A DNA stretch of 51,384 bases from contig CALWLK010000075.1 of assembly GCA_944381505.1 (NCBI GenBank), positions 1-51,384 on the forward strand, given 5' to 3'. The stretch comes from an uncultured Lachnospiraceae bacterium. Lineage in GTDB: Bacteria > Bacillota > Clostridia > Lachnospirales > Lachnospiraceae. Under the pieces are notes generated by a model. That model was not told the DNA's origin. It did not search any database and saw only the letters and a program-made list of their open reading frames with translations. The translations under genes and the position numbers were made by a program. How positions within the stretch are numbered: position 1 is the first letter of the stretch; every line of letters starts with the position of its first letter. Below, one piece after another: positions 1,737 through 11,785 of the stretch.

Positions 1737-3062
1737 TTATCTCGCCTGCACCACGCCGTCTACTACCCACTCTCCGTTTGCATTTACCGTGTAGCCGTCA
1801 GGGGTAGTCGCATTTCTAAGCATCGCCCCCAGAGGAAGTCCGTTTGCCCCCGAGGTCTGATTGAAGTAATAGCACTCCTTAAGTCCGTCTCCGTTTCCGT
1901 CTATCCACTGCCAGCCTGTGAGCATCGCTCCGTAGTTTCCGTCCTCCGTGTCATGAAGCCAATAGATATTTCCGTCGGTGTCGGAAAGCCAGCCGTGCTG
2001 CATATACCCCGCACTGTCGAAGTGATACCAGCCTGAACCCGCCTCTGTAGTGCACTCCTGCCATATATTTGCGTGGTAGGTCCCCTCGTGTCTTTGGAAC
2101 CACCATCCTGTGTCATCTTTAAGCCAAGTGCCGTTTCCGGGGCGGCTCATAGCCTCCTCGCGGGCCTGATTATTTGCTTCAATCTCGGCGTTCCACTCGT
2201 CAAGGAACTCCTCCTTGTCGGGCCTTCCCTCATACATCATGGGAGTGTCCCCTCTCGGATCTATTCCCTGACTCTCTCGAAACTCGTTGATGGACGCAAC
2301 ACGCCTTGCCTCGTCCACGTCCTCTCCGGCTTCCAATACCCTGATGTTATTGGACCACCGGTCGCGAACGCGATATGCTCCGCACACGCTGCACTGATAC
2401 AGCTCCGCAAGTCCTTCCTTTTCCATAGTTTCGTGATAGCCCTCGTCTATAAGCTCCCAGTCGCATTGTTCGTCGTCAACCGAACCCCTATTGTCAGGCT
2501 TATATTTTCCGCATACCGTACATCTCTGTGCATGGTATCCCGGAACCTCGTCGCCGGTTTGGCCGTACTGCACCCACTTGTAGGAGTCATGGCCGCAGTT
2601 AAAAGCTTCGTTCACATAATCTATATAAATAGTATAATCCTGCGTGGTCTCTCCGTCCGCAGCCCTCACGGTAAATGTCCATGTTTTTCCTCCATCATCA
2701 GTCCTTAAATCCTCCACTGTTGCGTAATTATCGTCTTGAACAGTGTGGCCTTCGGACACCGCCGCTCCTCCTCCCAGAGGTATCCAACGATCTATGACTC
2801 CGTAGCTTTTATCATCATCCTCCACTCTTATATAAATTTCATCCTCGTCTGTAATATAATCGGGCCAATCACATTTTACCGTTATATCGGAACCATCTAT
2901 CTCTCCGCTTTTTGAGGCTACAGTTACGGATTTCAGACTTGTATCCGTACTGTTCGGATCTCCGAGCTTGGGATCATACTCCTCATCTGCAAACGCCGCC
3001 ACAGGGCTTACCATAAGCATCGCTCCCGCCATAAGAAGGCTCAATATTTTCTTTTTTCGCAT
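1737..3062 (-). CDS. secreted protein with C-terminal cell-wall-binding-like repeats
   Basis: This 441-residue protein has a cleavable signal peptide (residues 1-25, ending AAFA). Residues ~30-150 look like a beta-rich, acidic domain. Residues ~155-235 contain four CxxC-type or Cys/His pairs (CGH, CTVCGKY, CSVCGAY), suggesting a zinc-ribbon or disulphide module. Residues ~310-441 hold degenerate Trp/Gly/Tyr-rich repeats (GWWFQ, SGWYHFDSAGYMQHGW, GWQWIDGNGDG, CYYFN) typical of choline/cell-wall-binding repeats (CW_binding family), so it is probably retained on the cell surface. The ATG at 3062 has a GGAGAGG ribosome binding site. It is monocistronic, between its own promoter and a terminator, downstream of the aro operon terminator. 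Its duplicate starts at 146. No enzymatic motif was recognised; surface-binding is inference. Confidence 0.75.
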   Translation of the reverse strand: MRKKKILSLLMAGAMLMVSPVAAFADEEYDPKLGDPNSTDTSLKSVTVASKSGEIDGSDITVKCDWPDYITDEDEIYIRVEDDDKSYGVIDRWIPLGGGAAVSEGHTVQDDNYATVEDLRTDDGGKTWTFTVRAADGETTQDYTIYIDYVNEAFNCGHDSYKWVQYGQTGDEVPGYHAQRCTVCGKYKPDNRGSVDDEQCDWELIDEGYHETMEKEGLAELYQCSVCGAYRVRDRWSNNIRVLEAGEDVDEARRVASINEFRESQGIDPRGDTPMMYEGRPDKEEFLDEWNAEIEANNQAREEAMSRPGNGTWLKDDTGWWFQRHEGTYHANIWQECTTEAGSGWYHFDSAGYMQHGWLSDTDGNIYWLHDTEDGNYGAMLTGWQWIDGNGDGLKECYYFNQTSGANGLPLGAMLRNATTPDGYTVNANGEWVVDGVVQAR

Positions 3063-3163
3063 AGCTTCCCTCTCCTTTTGCTCTCGAAAATTTTTTGATT
3101 TTTAAGCCGCAACAGGTTGTCTCTATGCCCTTATTATACCTCCCCCCAGTCGGAAAAAACAAG
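3063..3163. repeat. second copy of the duplicated promoter/leader region
   Basis: This is nearly identical to 147-244. It contains a -10 TATAAT (3133-3138, minus strand) and a -35 TTGTTT (3157-3162) with an 18-bp spacer. The -35 box overlaps the edge of the aroQ terminator hairpin. Confidence 0.75.
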
Positions 3164-3206
3164 AGCTGCAAAGACAGTTCCGGGGCTCCGCAGCTCTTTT
3201 AAAAAT
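3161..3206 (-). terminator. terminator of the aro operon (hairpin repeat, copy 2)
   Basis: The minus-strand RNA forms AAGAGCTGC / GCAGCTCTT arms (3190-3198 with 3161-3169) plus inner GC pairs, followed by GTTTTTT. It lies 60 bp after the aroQ stop codon and matches 1653-1695. Confidence 0.8.
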
Positions 3207-3257: not shown

Positions 3258-3692
3258 TCAGCTCTCCAAAAAGCTCTTTAAATAGAGTATGGCCTCCTCA
3301 TAGCCTGCAAAGCCCTTGCCGTAAAAGGTCTTCTCACAGGCTGCGGAGATGTAGGAGTGATGTCTGAACTCCTCCCTCTCATAAATATTTGACAGATGCA
3401 CCTCGCAGGCAGGGATGGACACGGCCTTTAAGGCGTCGAGTATGGCCACGCTGGTGTGGGTGTAGGCCGCAGGGTTAATGACTATGGCATCCTTTTTCCC
3501 ATAGGCCTCCTGTATCCTGTCCACTATGGCTCCCTCATGGTTTGACTGAAAAAACTCCACCTCTATATCGTTCTTTTCGCACACGCCCTTTATAAAAGAG
3601 ATGAGCCCCTCGTAGGTCTCCGTGCCGTAAATATTTTTTTCCCTTATGCCGAGCATGTTTATGTTGGGACCGTTAATCACCAAAAGCCTCAT
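3258..3692 (-). CDS. aroQ: 3-dehydroquinate dehydratase, type II
   Basis: This 144-residue enzyme dehydrates 3-dehydroquinate to 3-dehydroshikimate, the third step of the shikimate pathway. The type II signature is clear: the N-terminal INGPNINMLG, the catalytic-loop Tyr in IYGTETYE, FFQSNHEGAI, INPAAYTHTSVAI and VHLSNIYEREEFRHHS. Length is normal for the dodecameric type II family. It is the last gene of the aromatic operon and overlaps the preceding aroE-aroK fusion by 20 bp, so translation is probably coupled. A terminator follows. The family also includes quinate-catabolic enzymes, but the operon context settles a biosynthetic role. Confidence 0.96.
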   Translation of the reverse strand: MRLLVINGPNINMLGIREKNIYGTETYEGLISFIKGVCEKNDIEVEFFQSNHEGAIVDRIQEAYGKKDAIVINPAAYTHTSVAILDALKAVSIPACEVHLSNIYEREEFRHHSYISAACEKTFYGKGFAGYEEAILYLKSFLES

Positions 3693-4959
3693 ATTTTTTT
3701 AACTCCTCCACAATATTCCTCACGGTTTTCTCTATATCCCCGTTGTTATCCACAGTTATATCCGAAGCCTCCTCATAGAAGAGAAGCCTTCTTTTGTACA
3801 TGCCGTAGAGCTCCTCTCTGCTCTTTGAAAGGGGCCTTCCGTCAAGGCTCAATTTTTCTATATCACGCTTCAAAAACACCGTCACCGCGTTTTGTCTCAA
3901 GGCCTTTCTGTTTTCCTCTCTTAAAACGGCTCCGCCTCCCGTGGAGATGACAAGGCCCCTCTCCTTTGAGAGCTCAGCTATGACAGCGCTCTCCTTATCT
4001 CTGAAGCCCTGCTCCCCCTCTCTCTCGAAGATCTCGGGGATGGAGATTTCGTATTTTTCTTCAAGCACCGTGTCCGCGTCCTTAAACTCCTTTTTAAGTC
4101 GCAATGCCAGCTCTCTCCCCACAGTGCTCTTTCCCGAGGAGGGCATGCCCACAAGGACTATATTCGAAAGCTCCGAAAAGAGCTCCCTGCATATATGCTC
4201 CGTCTTCTCCTCGTCCTCGGAGGAAAGCTCCGGCTCCTCCTCGGGGATCCCCTGTCCTCTTTTTTCGGAGAAAAATATCCTGTCAGCCGCCACCGCCTGG
4301 GCCGCAAGCATGGGAAGCCCGTTGGAATATCTTATGTCTCTTTTTCGGGCCTCCTGAAGGAGCTCCGTCAGGAAGGGATTATAGATGACGTCCGCCACCG
4401 CCTCAAGGCGTGGGAAATCCGAAAGCTCCACGAGTTTCTCCCCGTTTTTGGGGTACATACCCACAGGGGTGGTGTTTATTATGACCTCGGCCTCCCTGTG
4501 CAGATACAGGTTTTCGTAATTATCCTCTCCCTTTCTCGATATGACTGTAACCGAGGCCGCTCCCATGTCCTCGCAGACTGTCCTTGCGGTGAGGGAGGTC
4601 CCGCCGCTTCCGAGTATCAGGACCTTCCTTCCGGAAAGCTCTATCCCTGCCCTGCAGAGCATGTATTTGAGTCCCGTATAGTCTGTATTAAAGCCCGAAA
4701 GCCTCCCGTCGGAGCCTTTTACCACAGTATTTACGCTCCCTATGCGCAGGGCCCTTTCGGATATGTGATCGAGAAAGGGCATCACTTCCTTTTTATAGGG
4801 TATGGTGACGTTTACGGCCTCAAAGGCCTTCTCCTCCATAAAAGCCGAAAGCCCGCCTCTCTCCACACAGAAAAGGCCGTAGTCCTCATTTCCCAAAAGC
4901 CCGTGTATCCTCGGGGAAAAGCTGTGGGCAAGCTTCTCCCCCAAAAGTCCGTACTTCAA
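3673..4959 (-). CDS. fused shikimate dehydrogenase - shikimate kinase
   Basis: This single 428-residue protein joins two consecutive steps. Residues 1-235 are AroE: the SFSPRIHG substrate-binding motif, catalytic Lys56 in VTIPYKK, Asp93 in NTDYTG, the nucleotide loop GSGGTS (117-122) and a C-terminal GLPMLAAQA motif. After an acidic linker (~238-262), residues 265-428 are AroK: P-loop GMPSSGKST (271-279), the DAD motif (294-296), Arg320, and GGG at 341-343. It would reduce 3-dehydroshikimate and then phosphorylate shikimate. The start is a TTG with GGGAGG eight bases upstream. There is no frameshift or stop between the domains, so the fusion is real unless it is a sequencing artefact. Its neighbours are pheA upstream and aroQ, which it overlaps, downstream. 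Confidence 0.93.
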   Translation of the reverse strand: MKYGLLGEKLAHSFSPRIHGLLGNEDYGLFCVERGGLSAFMEEKAFEAVNVTIPYKKEVMPFLDHISERALRIGSVNTVVKGSDGRLSGFNTDYTGLKYMLCRAGIELSGRKVLILGSGGTSLTARTVCEDMGAASVTVISRKGEDNYENLYLHREAEVIINTTPVGMYPKNGEKLVELSDFPRLEAVADVIYNPFLTELLQEARKRDIRYSNGLPMLAAQAVAADRIFFSEKRGQGIPEEEPELSSEDEEKTEHICRELFSELSNIVLVGMPSSGKSTVGRELALRLKKEFKDADTVLEEKYEISIPEIFEREGEQGFRDKESAVIAELSKERGLVISTGGGAVLREENRKALRQNAVTVFLKRDIEKLSLDGRPLSKSREELYGMYKRRLLFYEEASDITVDNNGDIEKTVRNIVEELKKYEAFGD

Positions 4960-4982: not shown

Positions 4983-5009
4983 AAAAACAGTCCGATGCCG
5001 ACTGTTTTT
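4983..5009 (-). terminator. internal terminator-like hairpin between pheA and aroE-aroK
   Basis: The minus-strand RNA forms a 10-bp stem, AAAAACAGTC pairing with GACTGTTTTT, with a 7-base loop (arms 5000-5009 and 4983-4992), placed in the only gap of the distal operon. It resembles an intrinsic terminator with a short U run and could reduce expression of the last two genes or stabilise the upstream mRNA. Confidence 0.5.
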
Positions 5010-5026
5010 TTTCATATTTGACTTTT

Positions 5027-6169
5027 TTATATTATCTCCGAGTAGCTTCCCAGGAAGGTGAAGCGGTCGAACTCCTCGTCGAACTCGCCTATGAGCTTTA
5101 AGACCTTGGGGTCCTTCATGTTGGCGTTCAAGTCAAAGTAGAACATGAACTCGAAGTCCTTGCCGGGCATGGGACGGCTCTCAAGCTTCGTGAGGTTGAG
5201 CCCCAGCGCCGAGAATCTGGATATTACGTTGTAGAGTGCTCCGGGCTTGTGGGCTATGGAGAACATCATGCTTATCTTGTCCGCTCCGGGATATATCTCA
5301 AGCTTCTTTGATATACATATGAAGCGGGTGTAATTGTTGTCGTTGTTCTGTATTGTATCCGACAGCACCGAGAGGCCGTAGAGCTCGGCGCAGTTTTTGG
5401 AGGATATGGCCGCAATGTCGTCCCTCTTTGACTGAGCCACCAGCTTTGCCGCAGTGGCGGTGTTCTCGCAGACTGTTATCTTTACGTCCTTTAAGGTCTT
5501 TAAAAACTCACTGCACTGGTCTATGGCCTGCTGATGGGAAACTATCTCCTTTATATTCTCCAGCTTTGTTCCCTTCTTGACCAAGAGATTGTGATCTATG
5601 CGAAGCTTTATGCTCCTCACGATATAGAAATTATGCCTTTTCATAAGGTCGTAGACCTCGTTTACGGAGCCTGCGGTGCTGTTCTCTATGGGCAGTATGC
5701 CATATTTGCAAAGTCCGCTCTCCACCGCCTGGAACACGCCCTGGAATCTGTTGAAGTACATGATAGAGGGCGTCTGAAAAAGCTTGTCGCAGGCATACTG
5801 TGAGTAGGCTCCCTCAACACCTTGGCAGGCCACCACCGAGCGGGAGGGGAATACAGCCTCCGTCTCCTCAAGGGCTCTCTCTATATCTCCCGTGAGGGCC
5901 GTCCCCTCCTCCATGAGCTGCTTCTGGTAAGAGCGGCTCACGTCGAAAAGGGTGGTGTAAAGTATGCTTATGTAGCTCTCGAACTCGCTGCCGGCTCTGT
6001 CGCAGGCCTTGTTGAGGACCTCCCTCTCTCTGGTCTTGTCAAATACCGGAAGCCCGTTTTCCTTCTTGTATTTTCCTATTTCCCTCGCAAGCTCCATCCT
6101 CCTCACAAAGAGAGCCGTGAGCTCCGTGTCCACCTTGTCGATCTCGTTTCTTGCATCTGTGATATCCAT
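5027..6169 (-). CDS. pheA: bifunctional chorismate mutase / prephenate dehydratase
   Basis: This protein converts chorismate to prephenate and then to phenylpyruvate, the precursor of phenylalanine. An AroQ-class chorismate mutase helical domain (DARNEIDKVDTELTALFVRRM, about residues 5-90) is followed by the prephenate dehydratase domain (VACQGVEGAYSQYA near 115, PIENSTAGSV near 160). The protein ends with an ACT domain bearing the Phe-binding ESRPMPG motif, so feedback inhibition by phenylalanine is expected. I place the start at 6169 (MDITDAR) because AGAGGAG lies 9 bp upstream. An in-frame ATG at 6211 would overlap aroC by 4 bp and has no good ribosome binding site. Length is 380 residues. 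Confidence 0.95.
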   Translation of the reverse strand: MDITDARNEIDKVDTELTALFVRRMELAREIGKYKKENGLPVFDKTREREVLNKACDRAGSEFESYISILYTTLFDVSRSYQKQLMEEGTALTGDIERALEETEAVFPSRSVVACQGVEGAYSQYACDKLFQTPSIMYFNRFQGVFQAVESGLCKYGILPIENSTAGSVNEVYDLMKRHNFYIVRSIKLRIDHNLLVKKGTKLENIKEIVSHQQAIDQCSEFLKTLKDVKITVCENTATAAKLVAQSKRDDIAAISSKNCAELYGLSVLSDTIQNNDNNYTRFICISKKLEIYPGADKISMMFSIAHKPGALYNVISRFSALGLNLTKLESRPMPGKDFEFMFYFDLNANMKDPKVLKLIGEFDEEFDRFTFLGSYSEII

Positions 6170-6207
6170 TTCCTTAAACTCCTCTCGGTTTTTTCTTCTG
6201 TATCGTA

Positions 6208-7326
6208 TCAATCAATAAAGGCCCCTGTGCCTGCCATCAGGTCGCACAGTGAAAAGGCCACCGCCGCCTCTATGCAGGGCACGGCTCTCGGCACTATGCA
6301 GGGGTCGTGTCTTCCCTTTATGGTGAGCTTTTCTTCTCTCATCTCCCTCAGATCCACCGAATCCTGAGGGAGGGCTATGGAGGGCGTGGGCTTTATGGCG
6401 GCTCTCACTATGAGGGGCATTCCCGTGGTGATCCCCCCAAGTATGCCGCCGTTTCTGTTCGTCACGGTCCTCACCCTTCCCTCTCTTATCTCATAGGGGT
6501 CGTTGGCCCTGCTCCCGGTCATCCGAGAAAGGGAAAAGCCCTCTCCGAACTCCACGCCTTTTACGGCGGGGATGCCGAACAAAAGAGCCGCAATTATATT
6601 TTCCACCCCGTCAAACATGGGGTCCCCCAGCCCTGCGGGAAGCCCCGTGACGACGCACTCCACTATGCCGCCCACGGAATCCCCCTGCGCTTTTTTCTCC
6701 GCTATTACAGAGAGCATCCTCTCTCCCGCCTCATCGCTTATGGTGGAGAAAGCCTTGAGCCCCGGGGCCTCGGCCTCCTCCCCCGTCAGCTTTACGCTGT
6801 CAAAGGCCTCGTCCCTTATCTCTCCTATGGAATATATATGGGCTCCCACACTTATGCCCCTCTTTTTGAGCATTGACCGGCAGAGTGCTCCCGCAAAGCA
6901 AAGGGGCGCCGTCAGTCTCCCCGAGAAGTGGCCTCCTCCCCTTATATCGTTAAAGCCCTTATATTTTACATAGGCCGGAAAGTCCGCGTGGGAGGGCCTG
7001 GGAGTGTATCTCAAGTTTTCGTAGTCCTTTGACCTTGTATCGCTGTTTTCTATGACGGCGCATATGGGAGCGCCGCAGCTTAAATATATCTCCCCCTCGG
7101 CTCCCTCGTCTCTCAAAAGTCCCGAGAGTATCCTCGGCCTGTCGGCCTCTCTCCTCGCAGTGGAGTAGGACTGCCCTCCGGGGGCCCGCCTTCTCATGAA
7201 GCTCATTATCTCCGAGAGATCAAAGCTCTCCCCTGCCGGTATGCCGTCTATGACGGCTCCTATGGCCTCTGAATGGGACTGCCCGAATATGGACAGCTTA
7301 ATATTTTTACCTGTCTCAGATGACAT
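6208..7326 (-). CDS. aroC: chorismate synthase
   Basis: This enzyme converts 5-enolpyruvylshikimate-3-phosphate to chorismate using reduced FMN. Family motifs are visible: FGQSHSEAIG at the N-terminus, RRRAPGG, the RPSHADF region, GGGHFSGRLTAPLC, and the C-terminal RHDPCIVPRAVPCIEA. I chose the ATG at 7326 (MSSETGK) because GGAGGG lies eight bases upstream and family members begin there; an in-frame ATG at 7359 lacks this. The gene overlaps the aroA stop by 11 bp, suggesting coupled translation. Length is 372 residues. Confidence 0.96.
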   Translation of the reverse strand: MSSETGKNIKLSIFGQSHSEAIGAVIDGIPAGESFDLSEIMSFMRRRAPGGQSYSTARREADRPRILSGLLRDEGAEGEIYLSCGAPICAVIENSDTRSKDYENLRYTPRPSHADFPAYVKYKGFNDIRGGGHFSGRLTAPLCFAGALCRSMLKKRGISVGAHIYSIGEIRDEAFDSVKLTGEEAEAPGLKAFSTISDEAGERMLSVIAEKKAQGDSVGGIVECVVTGLPAGLGDPMFDGVENIIAALLFGIPAVKGVEFGEGFSLSRMTGSRANDPYEIREGRVRTVTNRNGGILGGITTGMPLIVRAAIKPTPSIALPQDSVDLREMREEKLTIKGRHDPCIVPRAVPCIEAAVAFSLCDLMAGTGAFID

Positions 7327-8572
7327 CCGCTTTCCCTCCAAGCTTTCTGAAATCTTCAAAAAATCCGGGGTAGGACTTTTTGACCGCCTCGGCCCCCTCT
7401 ATTATGACGGGTTTTTCGCACATGGCCCCTATGATGGCGGCGCTCATGACCATGCGGTGGTCGTTGAAGCCCGAGAGCCTCACTCCTCCCTCTATGCGGG
7501 GCCTTCCCTCTATTATAAGCTGATCCTCCCCCTCCTTTACAGCCACACCGAGCCTCGTAAGATTTTCGGCTGTGGCAGAGAGCCTGTCGCACTCCTTTAT
7601 CCTCAATCTCGCCCCGTTTATAAACCTCGTCTCGCCTCTCCTGAAGGCTGCGGTGACAGCAAGGGCCGGAACGAGGTCGGGGATCCCTGAAACTTCCACA
7701 GATACCTCCCCTTCCTCCTTCATCCTTCGGAGGATATCGGCCACCTCCTTGTCCCCCTGAGGCGAATCCTCGGAGAGCCCGGATATCTCTATAAGGTTTC
7801 CTCCGAGGGCTCCCCCGCAGAGCCACATGGCCGAATTCGACCAGTCGCCCTCCACCCTATAGCTTACGGGCGAGGTATAGCCGGGTTTTTTCTTTTCGAG
7901 CCTGTAGCCTCTCTCCGTGCGCTTAAGCTCCGCTCCGAAAGCCTTCATCACTGAGAGAGTTATATCCACGTAGGCCGAGGATTCCAGCTCCGTTGTTATC
8001 TTAAGCTCTGCCTCTCTCTCCTCCATAAGCGGAAAGGAGAGAAGGAGCCCTGTTATAAACTGGGAGGATATGTTTCCCTCTATCTCAAAGCTCTCCCCCT
8101 TAAGCCTTCCCTCCATGATGAAGGGAAGCTTTTCCCGTGAGAAGCCGACACCGTGTCCTTTGAGAAGTCGGGTAAGAGGGCCTATGGGCCTTTCAGGGAG
8201 CCGTCCCTCTCCTTTTACCTCATAGCTTCCGCCCACGGCCGCCGCCACGGGTAGCATGAATCTCAGGGTGGAGCCGCTCTCTCCGCAAAAAAGCTCCCTC
8301 GGCTCCTTTTCGGGGCTCTCCCCCTCTCCCCCGGCTTTAAAGGGAGCGGGAGTCACAGTAAAGCTTCCCCTTTCCGTATTTCTCTCTATCCCTGCTCCGA
8401 GGGCCTTTAAGCAATCCATAGTGGCCTCAATGTCTCTTGAGAGCAGGTTGCAGAAGATCTCCGTCGTCCTGTCGGAAAAGGCTGCGCAGATGAGGGCTCT
8501 GTGCATATCGGATTTTGATGAGACAGCTTCGAGCCTTCCCCCCAGTCTTCCCGGGGATATCTTTATATCCAT
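7316..8572 (-). CDS. aroA: 3-phosphoshikimate 1-carboxyvinyltransferase (EPSP synthase)
   Basis: This 418-residue enzyme transfers the enolpyruvyl group of PEP to shikimate-3-phosphate. Motifs include SSKSDMHRALICAAF (Lys near residue 20, Arg near 25), GESGSTLRFMLP (about 95-106), the central Asp region (QGDKEVADIL), RIKECDRL and the C-terminal GFNDHRMVMSAAI. It is distinct from the related murA in this window (37265-38557). The start at 8572 has an AGAGGAGA site upstream. It lies 23 bp after aroB and overlaps aroC. Confidence 0.96.
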   Translation of the reverse strand: MDIKISPGRLGGRLEAVSSKSDMHRALICAAFSDRTTEIFCNLLSRDIEATMDCLKALGAGIERNTERGSFTVTPAPFKAGGEGESPEKEPRELFCGESGSTLRFMLPVAAAVGGSYEVKGEGRLPERPIGPLTRLLKGHGVGFSREKLPFIMEGRLKGESFEIEGNISSQFITGLLLSFPLMEEREAELKITTELESSAYVDITLSVMKAFGAELKRTERGYRLEKKKPGYTSPVSYRVEGDWSNSAMWLCGGALGGNLIEISGLSEDSPQGDKEVADILRRMKEEGEVSVEVSGIPDLVPALAVTAAFRRGETRFINGARLRIKECDRLSATAENLTRLGVAVKEGEDQLIIEGRPRIEGGVRLSGFNDHRMVMSAAIIGAMCEKPVIIEGAEAVKKSYPGFFEDFRKLGGKADVI

Positions 8573-8595: not shown

Positions 8596-9651
8596 TTATC
8601 TCAGGCAGCCCTCAAGCAGCCCCGGAAGCTCTGATTTGTCCACAGGGTATAGCCTGCAGCTTCCTATGGCCTCAGGGAGTATGAGGGTTATCCGATCTCC
8701 TCTCCTCTTTTTGTCCGAGAGAGCCGCCTCGGCTATATCCTTAAGCTCCATGTCTGTCCCTGTGGGAAGGTTGTTTTTCTCAAGACACTCTCTTATCCTT
8801 AAAACCTCTCCGTCCCCTGTGAGGCCGAGCTTTTTCGCCACCCTTGCAGCTATTGCTGTGCCCGCCGCCACGGCATGGCCGTGGGTTATCTCAAAGGAGC
8901 TCAGCTTTTCTATGGCGTGGCCGAAGGTGTGCCCAAGATTAAGCAGCTGCCTTCTTCCGTTATCTCTCTCGTCCTCGGCCACCAGCCTTTTCTTTATGGA
9001 GACGCACTCAAATATCGTCTCCTCCATGTTTTCCCTGAATCCACCTGTCTCAAAGCTCTCAAAGAGGCTCTCCGAGGAGAGTATCCCGTATTTAATGCCC
9101 TCGGCCACCCCGTCTGAAAAGGTGACATCGGGGAGTGTGTCCAACGTTCTGTGATCACAGAGTACCAGGGAGGGCTGCCAGAACGCTCCTGCGAGGTTCT
9201 TCCCCGCCTTGAGATCCACCCCGGTCTTTCCTCCCACCGAGGAGTCTATAGCCGCAAGGAAGGTGGTGGGTATCTGCATGAATTTTATGCCTCTCTGGTA
9301 GGAGGCCGCGGCGAATCCCGCCACATCCCCGGGGACGCCTCCTCCGAGGGCTATCACCATATCGCTCCTTGTAAGTCCCTTCTTTGCCAAAAATTCAAGT
9401 ATATCCCAGAGGGTCTCCATAGTTTTTGAGGCCTCTCCGTTTTTAAAGACATAGTTTTCCGTCTCAAAGCCCGCATCTCTAAGGCTTTTTTCGACGATGT
9501 CCCCGTAGAGCTCCCTGACTCTGTCGTCTGTTATGATGGCGGTCTTTTTGGGAGAGGCAACTTCTTTAAGCCTCGCCCCCGCCTCCTCAAGTATCCCCTC
9601 TCCTATCAAGACCTCGTAGCTTCGGGAGGCCTTCACCTCAAGTCTTCTCAT
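8596..9651 (-). CDS. aroB: 3-dehydroquinate synthase
   Basis: This 351-residue NAD- and metal-dependent enzyme cyclises DAHP to 3-dehydroquinate. Evidence is the NAD/substrate-binding signature (ALGGGVPGDVAGFAAASYQRG), IPTTFLAAIDSSVGGKTGVD, KNLAGAFWQP, and the metal ligands in NLGHTFGHAIE and ITHGHAVAAG. It overlaps tyrA by 4 bp (ATGA arrangement), so translation is coupled. Length and motif order are normal. Confidence 0.96.
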   Translation of the reverse strand: MRRLEVKASRSYEVLIGEGILEEAGARLKEVASPKKTAIITDDRVRELYGDIVEKSLRDAGFETENYVFKNGEASKTMETLWDILEFLAKKGLTRSDMVIALGGGVPGDVAGFAAASYQRGIKFMQIPTTFLAAIDSSVGGKTGVDLKAGKNLAGAFWQPSLVLCDHRTLDTLPDVTFSDGVAEGIKYGILSSESLFESFETGGFRENMEETIFECVSIKKRLVAEDERDNGRRQLLNLGHTFGHAIEKLSSFEITHGHAVAAGTAIAARVAKKLGLTGDGEVLRIRECLEKNNLPTGTDMELKDIAEAALSDKKRRGDRITLILPEAIGSCRLYPVDKSELPGLLEGCLR

Positions 9652-10484
9652 ACTCTGTCTATCCCTTCCTTCATTTCACGCCCCTCCTTAAGGAGCCTTT
9701 TAAGCTCGTCCCTGTCTCCCTCAGCTATGGCCCTTCGGTATTGTGAGAGCCTCTCGCATATGCCGTCTATCTCCTCGAGAAGATACCCGGAATTGTCGAG
9801 GAATAGCTCGGTCCACATAGTCTCGTTGAGCTTCGCCACCCTGGTGAGATCCTTGTAGCTCCCCGCTGAAAATCCGTAGTGGAGAAGGGCCGTGGGGCTC
9901 TTTATGTAGGCGCTTGACACCACATGGGCCAGCTGGGAGGTAAAGGCTATTATCCTGTCGTGCTCCTCCTTGCCGGTCCTCGTTATGTCCTTGAAGCCAA
10001 GCTCCAAAAAGAAGCTCTCCGCCTTCTCTATCGCCGCCTTGTCCGGACAGTCCCCCTCCACAAGTATCATGGAGGCTCCGTCAAAGAGATCCGCCCTTGA
10101 GCTTGTGTAGCCGGAGCTCTCTGTGCCCGCCATGGGGTGGCCTCCTATATAGTTTACCCTCCTGCCTCGAAGCACCTCCTCCATGGGCTCCATGACGGCC
10201 TTCTTCACTCCGCACAGATCCACTATGGTTATCCCCTCGGGCAGGTCCTCTATATGTTCCCTGACGAAATCCACCGCCGCCTTGGGGTACAGAGCTATGA
10301 GGAGTAGCTCGCAGTCTCCGAGGTTTTCCGCCGAGAGCCTAAGATCCGCCGTTCCCTCGGAAAGAACCTTCCTCATCACTGTTTCGTCCCTGTCAAAGCC
10401 GTAGACCTCGTGGCCCCCTGCTCTCTTTATCGCCTTTGCCATGGAGCCTCCTATGAGGCCCAGGCCCACTATAGCCGCCTTCAT
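9648..10484 (-). CDS. tyrA: prephenate dehydrogenase
   Basis: This 278-residue NAD(P)-dependent enzyme oxidatively decarboxylates prephenate to 4-hydroxyphenylpyruvate, the tyrosine precursor. The N-terminal Rossmann motif GLGLIGGSMAKAIK (residues 7-20), GGHPMAGTE (~134-142) with the catalytic His, and the helical C-terminal domain (FTSQLAHVVSSA) identify it. There is no fused chorismate mutase or ACT domain, so allosteric control by Tyr is not obvious. The start follows a GGGAGCCGGG segment, 9 bp after the DAHP synthase stop. The mutase it needs is supplied by PheA in the same operon. Confidence 0.94.
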   Translation of the reverse strand: MKAAIVGLGLIGGSMAKAIKRAGGHEVYGFDRDETVMRKVLSEGTADLRLSAENLGDCELLLIALYPKAAVDFVREHIEDLPEGITIVDLCGVKKAVMEPMEEVLRGRRVNYIGGHPMAGTESSGYTSSRADLFDGASMILVEGDCPDKAAIEKAESFFLELGFKDITRTGKEEHDRIIAFTSQLAHVVSSAYIKSPTALLHYGFSAGSYKDLTRVAKLNETMWTELFLDNSGYLLEEIDGICERLSQYRRAIAEGDRDELKRLLKEGREMKEGIDRV

Positions 10485-10493
10485 CCCGGCTCC

Positions 10494-11507
10494 CTACCTG
10501 TACTTTTTGTTTACGACTCCCAGTATGGGGTCAAGGTCGTGCATGAGGGAGTCGAAGGCCTCGGGAGTTATGGACTGAGGGCCGTCGCAGAGGGCGTGCT
10601 GAGGGTCATTGTGCACCTCTATTATGAGGCCGTCCGCACCTGCGGCGGCGGAGGCCAGCGACATGGGCCTTACCATCCTTGACATTCCCGTGGAATGGCT
10701 GGGATCCACTATCACGGGAAGATGGGAGAGCTCCTTTATCACAGGTATGGCGGATATGTCCAGAGTGTTTCTGGTGTAGGTCTCAAAGGTCCTTATGCCT
10801 CTCTCGCAGAGTATGACCTGCTCGTTTCCTCCCGCCATTATGTACTCGGCGCTCATGAGGAGCTCCTGTATGGTGTTTGCAAGGCCTCTCTTTAAGAGTA
10901 TGGGCTTTCTTATGTGTCCCAGCTCCTTCAGAAGCTCGAAATTCTGCATGTTCCTCGCTCCCACCTGTATCACGTCCACCTCCTCAAAGAGGGGAAGGTG
11001 GGAGGCGTCCATTATCTCCGTGACTATGGGGAGTCCCGAGTATTCCTTGGCCTTTAAGAGAAGCTTAAGGCCCTCGGCTCTCAGTCCCTGAAAGGCATAG
11101 GGGGAGGTCCTGGGCTTGAAGGCCCCGCCTCGAAGCATGGTCGCCCCGGCCTTCTTTACCGCCATGGCTATGGTGCATATCTGCTCCTCGCTCTCCACTG
11201 AGCAGGGGCCCGCTATCACCTGAAACCAGCCTCCGCCTATCCGGTTTCCGCCCACATCTATTATGGTGTCATCCGGGTGGAATTTTCTGTTGGCGTTTTT
11301 GAAGGGCTCTTGGATCCTCTTTACGCTCTCAACGATATCGAGCCCCTCTAAAAGATCCGCATCCACCTTGGACGTGTCTCCCACAAGGCCCAATATGGTC
11401 TGAAATCTTCCCTCGCTCAGGTGGGTCTCCACTCCCTGAGTCTTAAGCCATGTAATCAGATTGTCTATCTGGGCTCTGTCAGTGTTTTCCTTCATTACAA
11501 GTATCAT
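10494..11507 (-). CDS. aroF: 3-deoxy-7-phosphoheptulonate (DAHP) synthase, type I-beta
   Basis: This 337-residue entry enzyme condenses PEP with erythrose-4-phosphate. Residues 1-65 form a ferredoxin-like regulatory domain of the kind found in Thermotoga-type DAHP synthases, where it senses Tyr/Phe. The barrel carries VIAGPCSVES, RGGAFKPRTSPYAFQG, GARNMQNFELL, RGIRTFETYTRNTLD and DPSHSTGM. A GGAGG site lies 8 bp before the ATG. It is the first structural gene of the eight-gene operon and lies directly after the attenuator at 11559-11717. The symbol follows common clostridial usage; some genomes call it aroG or aroA. Confidence 0.94.
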   Translation of the reverse strand: MILVMKENTDRAQIDNLITWLKTQGVETHLSEGRFQTILGLVGDTSKVDADLLEGLDIVESVKRIQEPFKNANRKFHPDDTIIDVGGNRIGGGWFQVIAGPCSVESEEQICTIAMAVKKAGATMLRGGAFKPRTSPYAFQGLRAEGLKLLLKAKEYSGLPIVTEIMDASHLPLFEEVDVIQVGARNMQNFELLKELGHIRKPILLKRGLANTIQELLMSAEYIMAGGNEQVILCERGIRTFETYTRNTLDISAIPVIKELSHLPVIVDPSHSTGMSRMVRPMSLASAAAGADGLIIEVHNDPQHALCDGPQSITPEAFDSLMHDLDPILGVVNKKYR

Positions 11508-11558: not shown

Positions 11559-11592
11559 AAAAAAGAGCTCCGCAGTGTTCTCTGCGAAGCTC
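11559..11592 (-). terminator. attenuator terminator before the aromatic operon
   Basis: The minus-strand RNA forms an 11-bp stem, GAGCTTCGCAG pairing with CTGCGGAGCTC (one G-U pair), with a 6-base loop, followed by six U residues (11564 down to 11559). It lies between the Tyr/Phe leader peptide and the DAHP synthase start. Readthrough of this terminator is needed to express the operon from the promoter at 11757-11785. Confidence 0.9.
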
Positions 11593-11698
11593 CGATAACT
11601 CTTTGATATAAAAACTCGGATTCAAGTATTTCAGCAGCAAACACCAACAGACCTTACCTTTGAGAAAGTAAAGTAAAAGTAAAAGTAATATGCTGCTG
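11582..11698 (-). promoter_or_regulatory. alternative (pause and antiterminator) pairings of the aro attenuator
   Basis: The 1:2 stem is CAGCAGCA (11691-11698, the Ala codons just before the Tyr/Phe run) pairing with TGCTGCTG (11632-11639, the last codons and stop), 8 bp perfect. The competing 2:3 stem pairs CTGC-T-GAA (11630-11637) with TTCGCAG (11582-11588), nested around TCCGA (11616-11620) pairing with TCGGA (11591-11595). The 2:3 stem uses the 5' arm of the terminator and so would block termination. This is the geometry of a classical amino-acid leader attenuator; folding energies were not computed. Confidence 0.75.
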
Positions 11699-11717
11699 CT
11701 CCCATAACAGATTTCAT
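11631..11717 (-). CDS. 28-residue Tyr/Phe-rich leader peptide of the aromatic operon
   Basis: A short frame starts with ATG at 11717, with AGGA eight bases upstream, and ends with TGA at 11631-11633. After MKSVMGAAA it reads YYFYFYFTF: eight of nine consecutive codons are Tyr or Phe (4 Tyr, 4 Phe). It ends with two Cys codons whose DNA is part of the pairing region. It is 124 bp before a DAHP synthase gene that starts a Tyr/Phe operon, and is followed by a strong terminator. A ribosome stalled for lack of Tyr-tRNA or Phe-tRNA would cover the upstream arm and favour antitermination. It is too short to be an ordinary protein; the role as a sensor is inferred from codon content and RNA pairing. 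Confidence 0.88.
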   Translation of the reverse strand: MKSVMGAAAYYFYFYFTFSKVRSVGVCC

Positions 11718-11756
11718 ATACAAGATCCTATTTCTTCTCAGCTATTAATTTTTTTC

Positions 11757-11785
11757 ATAATATCACAATATTCTATTCCTGTAAA
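11757..11785 (-). promoter_or_regulatory. promoter of the aromatic amino acid operon
   Basis: On the minus strand -35 TTTACA (11780-11785) and -10 TATTAT (11757-11762) are separated by exactly 17 bp. Transcription would begin near 11750, about 33 bases before the leader-peptide start. Confidence 0.75.

Follow-up and report, generated by a model that had tools for sequence, protein, structure and literature searches.

What controls transcription of an operon for tyrosine and phenylalanine synthesis, when a short ORF with a run of codons for these same two amino acids precedes its first gene? The locus that raises this question lies on the minus strand of the window, by which we mean the whole stretch of 51,384 nucleotides that was analysed, and a preliminary description had proposed a complete leader-peptide attenuator there. 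Our analysis indicates that the region is very probably a ribosome-mediated transcription attenuator, which would read the charging of tRNA-Tyr and tRNA-Phe and control the aro-tyr-phe operon (Table 1). The proposal is strongly supported by the leaders and terminators of relatives and by co-evolving 1:2 and 2:3 pairings, whereas stalling of the ribosome and the readthrough that follows it are what we infer from them.

Leader and operon in the window

The promoter that had been proposed was recovered, as a match of the sigma-70 type. On its own, this match is weak evidence and not notable by count (three promoter-type sites in 701 bases, with 1.4 expected); in addition, CTTTACA was found at the corresponding place in 11 of the 11 nearest relatives fetched (L003–L013). 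The leader of 28 codons was also present as described, with its eight Tyr/Phe codons in nine, and this block of codons is beyond chance: when the 700-base region upstream of aroF was shuffled 2,000 times with dinucleotides preserved, no ORF reached at least eight aromatics per 10 codons, the maximum being six.

The operon downstream of the leader makes the amino acids of the control codons, as it includes tyrA and pheA together with shikimate genes. Its eight ORFs, in the order aroF-tyrA-aroB-aroA-aroC-pheA-aroEK-aroQ, follow one another on the minus strand with spacings from overlaps up to 67 bases, and the end of the leader T run (11559) lies 51 bases upstream of the DAHP synthase ATG (11507). 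Judging from gene order, control of all eight genes by the leader is plausible. A small hairpin followed by five T is found between pheA and aroEK on the minus strand (4983–5009) and could act as a weak internal terminator; for this reason we consider it no more than likely that transcription continues into aroEK and aroQ, the last two genes. The scan for terminators flags this hairpin on the plus strand only. Across the operon, the promoter and terminator scan gave 12 terminator-like sites (9.3 expected), and the sole site on the minus strand is weak and located inside aroF. Downstream of aroQ (3154–3198, minus strand), AAGAGCTGC...GCAGCTCTT followed by G and six T was noticed by eye; this hairpin with its T run is a possible end of the operon transcript, although the terminator scan did not flag it. 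Further downstream, an ORF at 1737–3062 shows weak matches to choline-binding repeats, under the curated cut-offs.

Taken together, the locus holds codons for the end products in an ORF, a matching operon, a terminator, a 2:3 antiterminator and a 1:2 pairing, the parts by which an attenuator is recognised.

Table 1. Features of the putative attenuator and of the operon behind it, with positions in the window
Feature	Position	Strand	Basis or remark
Promoter match, sigma-70 type, TTTACA-17-TATTAT, TG ahead of second hexamer	11757..11785	minus	10/12 matches
Likely Shine-Dalgarno AGGA of leader	11726..11729	minus	8 nt ahead of ATG; judged from sequence
Leader peptide ORF MKSVMGAAAYYFYFYFTFSKVRSVGVCC, 28 codons + TGA	11631..11717	minus	ATG at 11717; similar leaders in all L003–L013
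Segment 1, 5' arm of 1:2 stem	11691..11698	minus	8 bp in MFE without ribosome
Control codons 10–18, YYFYFYFTF, 8/9 Tyr/Phe	11664..11690	minus	aromatic class kept in L002–L013, Tyr/Phe swapped
Segment 2, antiterminator core GUGUUUGCUGC	11634..11644	minus	pairs with 11585–11575; fold, duplex and swap-test evidence
3' arm of 1:2 stem	11632..11639	minus	pairs with 11698–11691; reaches leader stop codon
Segment 3 GCAGAGAACAC, top of terminator 5' arm + loop	11575..11585	minus	pairs with segment 2
Putative intrinsic terminator hairpin, 12 pairs	11564..11593	minus	equivalents in 71/77 leaders vs 6/385 shuffles
Terminator run, six T	11559..11564	minus	read from sequence
aroF, DAHP synthase with ferredoxin-like domain	10494..11507	minus	family match
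tyrA, prephenate dehydrogenase	9648..10484	minus	family match
aroB, 3-dehydroquinate synthase	8596..9651	minus	family match
aroA, EPSP synthase	7316..8572	minus	family match
aroC, chorismate synthase	6208..7359	minus	family match; start codon uncertain
pheA, chorismate mutase-prephenate dehydratase	5027..6211	minus	family match
aroE-aroK fusion, shikimate dehydrogenase-shikimate kinase in one ORF	3673..4959	minus	family match
aroQ, type II dehydroquinase	3258..3692	minus	family match

Alternative pairings of the leader RNA

The leader RNA has an MFE of −55.1 kcal/mol, whereas its shuffles average −42.6 (z = −3.25), and 0 of 200 was as good. Folded without a ribosome, it contains both the 8-bp 1:2 stem, which encloses the control codons as had been proposed, and the terminator, whose hairpin with six U ahead of the DAHP synthase gene was confirmed. 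The competing 2:3 pairing had been described as overlapping the leader stop codon and as using the 5' arm of the terminator. Overlap with the stop codon is predicted in the window, and the stretch that crosses it (GAA with UUC) is predicted in L003 too and partly in L004, but it is altered or absent in L005–L013, and the core of the pairing is 11644–11634 with 11585–11575, containing one mismatch. As for the terminator arm, its upper part is indeed used, with the refinement that the terminator loop is included as well.

In the mechanism that we propose, when Tyr and Phe are ample the ribosome would reach the leader stop and cover segment 2, and the 3:4 terminator would form (11593–11559). With either charged tRNA scarce, the ribosome would stall within the YYFYFYFTF block, covering segment 1; in this stalled state, segment 2 would take the upper 5' arm and the loop of the terminator before its 3' arm exists, leading to readthrough into aroF. 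Were the leader left untranslated, 1:2 would form and the terminator would prevail. Because the Tyr and Phe codons interleave, the device should behave as an OR gate, opened by a shortage of Tyr or of Phe alone. Ribosome stalling, the response to Tyr and Phe supply and how far the transcript extends are the points at which we infer beyond the pairings themselves.

These states were modelled on partial transcripts ending at 11575, where segment 3 has been made and the 3' arm of the terminator is absent, with the ribosome-covered RNA masked. In the MFE of the window leader, 2:3 is present for A-site codons 7–11 and 15–21, keeps seven of its pairs for codons 22–23 and is lost for codons 24–29. 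The folding check suggested in the preliminary description, with the leader masked or unmasked, was favourable at codons 7–11 and 15–21, but not at codons 12–14, where 2:3 is absent and another fold is predicted, nor at full length, where the terminator is favoured at every ribosome position tested. E. coli trpL, taken as a yardstick, behaved alike in the same calculation, the terminator winning at full length too, and the idea that the full-length MFE would show antitermination was rejected on these grounds. Since the terminator is the full-length MFE in every state tested, antitermination would have to be kinetic, as in the classical case. Extending the calculation to 124 leaders with segment 3 just made, a 2:3 pairing of at least 6 bp appeared in the MFE of 111 when the ribosome was placed on the first aromatic codon, and of 52 when it was omitted; with the ribosome at the stop it appeared in 0 of the 124, which is largely the result of the masking itself.

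Evidence on the pairings independent of any single fold came from a swap test, in which the predicted pairing of each segment 2 with its own segment 3 was compared with its pairing to the segments 3 of every other leader. Own partners paired more stably both in 71 leaders (−13.42 against −9.59 kcal/mol for swapped ones) and in 53 others obtained by a draw across the class (−14.44 against −9.10 kcal/mol), with p = 0.00005 in each case and also in a non-redundant set of 66; this value is the floor for 20,000 permutations. Shared ancestry makes such permutation p-values optimistic, an effect that the non-redundant set lessens but does not remove. The own-partner effect for 2:3 holds within the 12 nearest leaders as well (p = 0.0002). 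An effect was also obtained for 1:2 in the same wide sets (p = 0.00005), whereas the 12 nearest leaders, in which segment 1 hardly varies, gave none (−12.23 for own and −12.82 for swapped partners, p = 0.80). The covariation that had been put forward as a check is thus seen for 2:3 both near and wide, and for 1:2 only in the wide sets. Control pairings, of a stretch ahead of the leader with segment 3 and of segment 1 with segment 3, gave no own-partner effect (p from 0.09 to 0.77).

Compensatory changes in 2:3 can be followed in individual sequences, with AGUUUU/AAAACU in L009–L010 and GGUUUU/AAGACC in L008, and among the nearest relatives, substitutions at the start of segment 2 are accompanied by substitutions at the end of the terminator loop. 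The 2:3 helix of L002–L007 and L013 contains one mismatch. As gaps of the MAFFT alignment fall inside segment 2 (GTGTTT--TGC), helices were compared by duplex predictions and by ungapped segments. The anatomy of the putative attenuator, its conservation and the co-evolution of its pairings are documented in this way at the level of sequence.

Alternative hairpins alone would suit several devices, and a protein or a ligand, in the manner of TRAP or of an undescribed riboswitch, might select between the two. Leaders regulated by TRAP carry a series of (G/U)AG repeats. With such a switch, the Tyr/Phe codon block would have no role at the place where it stands, and in the leader region no Rfam family, riboswitches and T-box included, was found at the gathering score, with nothing credible at E values up to 10; we give this explanation virtually no chance. 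The absence of a T-box noted in the preliminary description was borne out by the same search, and a T-box as regulator of the aromatic operon was rejected, with no match to RF00230 in the leader region. The Phe, Trp and His leader families of Rfam were not matched at the gathering score in this region either.

Aromatic leaders in relatives

Further support for the ribosome-mediated attenuator was found in regions upstream of other DAHP synthase genes. With this enzyme as bait, 30 loci from whole genomes (the window's own included) and 80 from named genome contigs were collected, the latter mostly labelled Clostridia, Oscillospiraceae, Lachnospiraceae and similar, with some other labels. An ORF with at least six aromatics per 10 codons was present in 81 of these 110 upstream regions, compared with 5 of 110 on the antisense strand and 29 of 1,090 shuffles. 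With at least seven aromatics, the figures were 66 of 110 regions, 1 antisense and 6 of 1,090 shuffles, and with at least eight, 40 of 110, 0 and 0 of 1,090. By the six-in-10 test, 29 of the 110 regions had no leader, and five of the 110 were shortened by contig ends. After filters on position and length, 77 leaders were kept, most of them with a terminator-like hairpin and T run ahead of aroF (71 of 77, against 6 of 385 shuffled sequences). Their aromatic blocks contain 280 Y, 287 F and 5 W, and both Tyr and Phe occur in 76 of the 77. In the 12 nearest leaders, the block is 8/9 or 6/6 aromatic, with Tyr and Phe exchanged and the block length varying; conservation of Tyr/Phe codons among related genomes, another check that had been suggested, was confirmed in that the aromatic class is kept throughout L002–L013.

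Phe codons in the 77 blocks are mostly TTT (246, against 41 TTC), whereas in the DAHP synthase genes of these loci TTT was counted 331 times and TTC 383 times; a preference that serves structure or slow decoding is suggested. In addition, Tyr/Phe leaders upstream of aroF were found on contigs labelled Lentisphaerae, Thermoguttaceae, Treponema and Treponemataceae (L055, L066, L067, L080), which would reflect either horizontal transfer or mislabelled bins. The cultured relative Angelakisella massiliensis (L033) has the leader as well.

Conservation of the ORF, together with its promoter match and terminator, might also be expected of a gene in its own right, encoding a small functional (for instance membrane) peptide, with the terminator merely closing its transcript. 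Outside the aromatic block, however, the 77 leaders vary in sequence, and their length ranges from 17 to about 52 residues. Moreover, the upper arm and the loop of the terminator co-evolve with the 3' end of the leader, which an independent gene would not need, and we consider this explanation extremely improbable.

The residues around the block are more constant in the nearest leaders: in most of the 12, Ala residues stand ahead of it and G/S-K/R-V after it. This pattern would suit a nascent-peptide arrest, in the manner of TnaC, sensing free Tyr/Phe or another ligand instead of stalling on uncharged tRNA. Nevertheless, Tyr and Phe replace each other within the same 12 leaders, whose blocks also differ in length, and the constant residues can be explained by RNA pairing, since segment 1 contains the Ala codons and the inner part of the 1:2 hairpin contains those for K/R-V. 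A second leader type also bears on this point. It carries a motif like SWGFYFSAG, matched in 14 leaders by the expression used (L023, L101, L102, L167, L172, L177, L193, L194, L197–L199, L202, L212, L223). One position in these 14 is W, R, L or Q, always with an NNG codon, and the preceding codon always ends in C, which suggests that nucleotides are conserved above residues and that an RNA element overlaps the control codons. An arrest-peptide reading of this second type is weakened by nucleotides being kept more strongly than residues. For the locus studied here, an arrest peptide appears very unlikely, and stalling on uncharged tRNA is the reading that we retain.

Distribution, T-boxes and known systems

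The preliminary description had regarded a device of this kind as unusual, a view that a class-wide draw did not support; similar uORF candidates have also been published (see below). The draw comprised 147 genomes, with DAHP synthase matches in 109, and the regions upstream of 140 matches from 101 genomes were analysed, namely the listed matches that start at query residue 1 or 2; this set omits the window's own region and G052. An aromatic leader was detected in 61 of the 140 regions (6 antisense), and 53 of the 61 had a terminator. The 53 regions with both features belong to 27 of the 45 families, and Tyr/Phe leader-peptide attenuators are accordingly predicted to be common in the class, although its members are better known for the T-box.

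The core motif of the T-box, with one mismatch allowed, was found in 24 of the 140 regions, together with any leader in three and with a leader plus terminator in only one (Fisher p about 0.0001). Leaders with a terminator precede 53 of the 92 more similar DAHP synthases and 0 of the 48 less similar ones, while T-box cores precede 7 and 17 of them, respectively, in a split that ranks the enzymes by similarity alone, with a dividing line chosen after the list was seen. An Rfam scan of 20 loci of the first set gave one T-box (L020). On this basis we moderately favour the view that dual Tyr and Phe leader-peptide attenuation is a principal and old control of aromatic biosynthesis across what is probably the clostridial class, and that it gives way to T-boxes depending on which type of DAHP synthase is present. 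If so, a two-amino-acid OR gate, beyond the reach of a single-specifier T-box, would operate in genomes that use T-boxes elsewhere.

With the enterobacterial trp, phe and his attenuators, the leader of the window shares the short ORF with regulatory codons, the 1:2, 2:3 and 3:4 alternatives and the terminator before the first gene. In contrast to them, it combines two amino acids in one interleaved block, its segment 2 pairs mainly with the upper arm and the loop of the terminator, its host probably belongs to the Clostridia, and it matches no Rfam leader family. The T-box (RF00230) also reads tRNA charging and controls the same kind of gene, but it reads one specifier codon, whereas the leader would read two amino acids.

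Among published candidates, two uORFs with Phe and Tyr are "associated with shikimate metabolism genes" according to the legend of Fig. 6 in a comparative genomics study (PMC6429828); going by that description, they and the window leader are alike Phe/Tyr uORFs at shikimate genes. The uORFC-13-1 motif ahead of aroF is described with 24 representatives, having at least one Phe residue, from Acholeplasma and environmental DNA only (PMC8632094), and by the same description it shares with our leader a uORF with Phe codon(s), a terminator and a DAHP synthase downstream. Other amino acid leader peptides of Firmicutes, serving other amino acids and other genes, are proposed as attenuators in the accessible text of three sources, for hisS*/hisZ in Bacillus (PMC2965389), for ilv-leu in S. 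aureus, with mutants and promoter activity mentioned (PMC5794164), and for his operons in some Eubacteriales, Erysipelotrichales and Bacillus cereus group species (PMC9413887). The accessible parts of PMC11109978 and PMC2494555 name no Tyr/Phe leader of this kind, and our search of the open-licence literature turned up no description of Tyr/Phe leaders as a frequent means of attenuation in the Clostridia.

The principle of the mechanism is known, and beyond the single case it is the frequency of the device, its dual specificity and the way it alternates with T-boxes that deserve attention. If these hold true, a form of attenuation taught as proteobacterial would be a common aromatic control in many, mostly uncultured, gut and rumen bacteria, with one device sensing two end products, and leader peptide and T-box would replace each other ahead of the same enzyme. 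In addition, 124 natural antiterminator-terminator variants are at hand, and the finding, if true, could aid the annotation of aroF operons.

The host genome itself contains four T-boxes, located before thrS, pheS, a gene for a MetN-like ABC transporter (a match below the family cut-off) and a gene cut by a contig end, with specifiers read by eye from the alignments as ACC, UUC, AUG and possibly UGG. Given the T-box ahead of pheS (L282, G000:C85), with its specifier UUC by eye, the host probably senses the charging of tRNA-Phe in two ways, with a T-box controlling the synthetase and a leader peptide controlling the pathway.

Within the genus, 4 of 25 genomes gave a trpE match. The host (86.6% complete) and its 11 nearest leader-bearing relatives gave none, nor did any of these 12 have a trpB match over the family cut-off; hisG was not found in 11 of the 12 closest-leader genomes and is present in G015. 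Six congeners (G001, G004, G013, G017, G022 and G024) have trpB over the cut-off and yet lack a trpE match, which makes the trpE search weak when taken by itself; nonetheless, because 12 genomes and two genes agree, the operon in the host lineage probably serves Tyr and Phe synthesis for the most part, in keeping with the absence of Trp codons from the leader. The stronger statement, that Trp codons are missing because the host cannot make Trp, is suggestive only: the leaders of the Trp-capable G012 and G023 (L017 and L016) are also Trp-free, and the link between Trp codons and Trp synthesis is therefore not strict. The one leader with Trp among the congeners (L015) belongs to G017, which has trpB. 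A search for leader peptides at the other loci of the genus gave one weak Trp candidate (L126) among the four trpE loci and none for His among the 13 hisG loci. Finally, the host T-box with the possible UGG specifier (L281, G000:C79, at a contig end) lies before a truncated ORF without a family match, a gene that could serve to import Trp into a host in which neither trpE nor trpB was detected.
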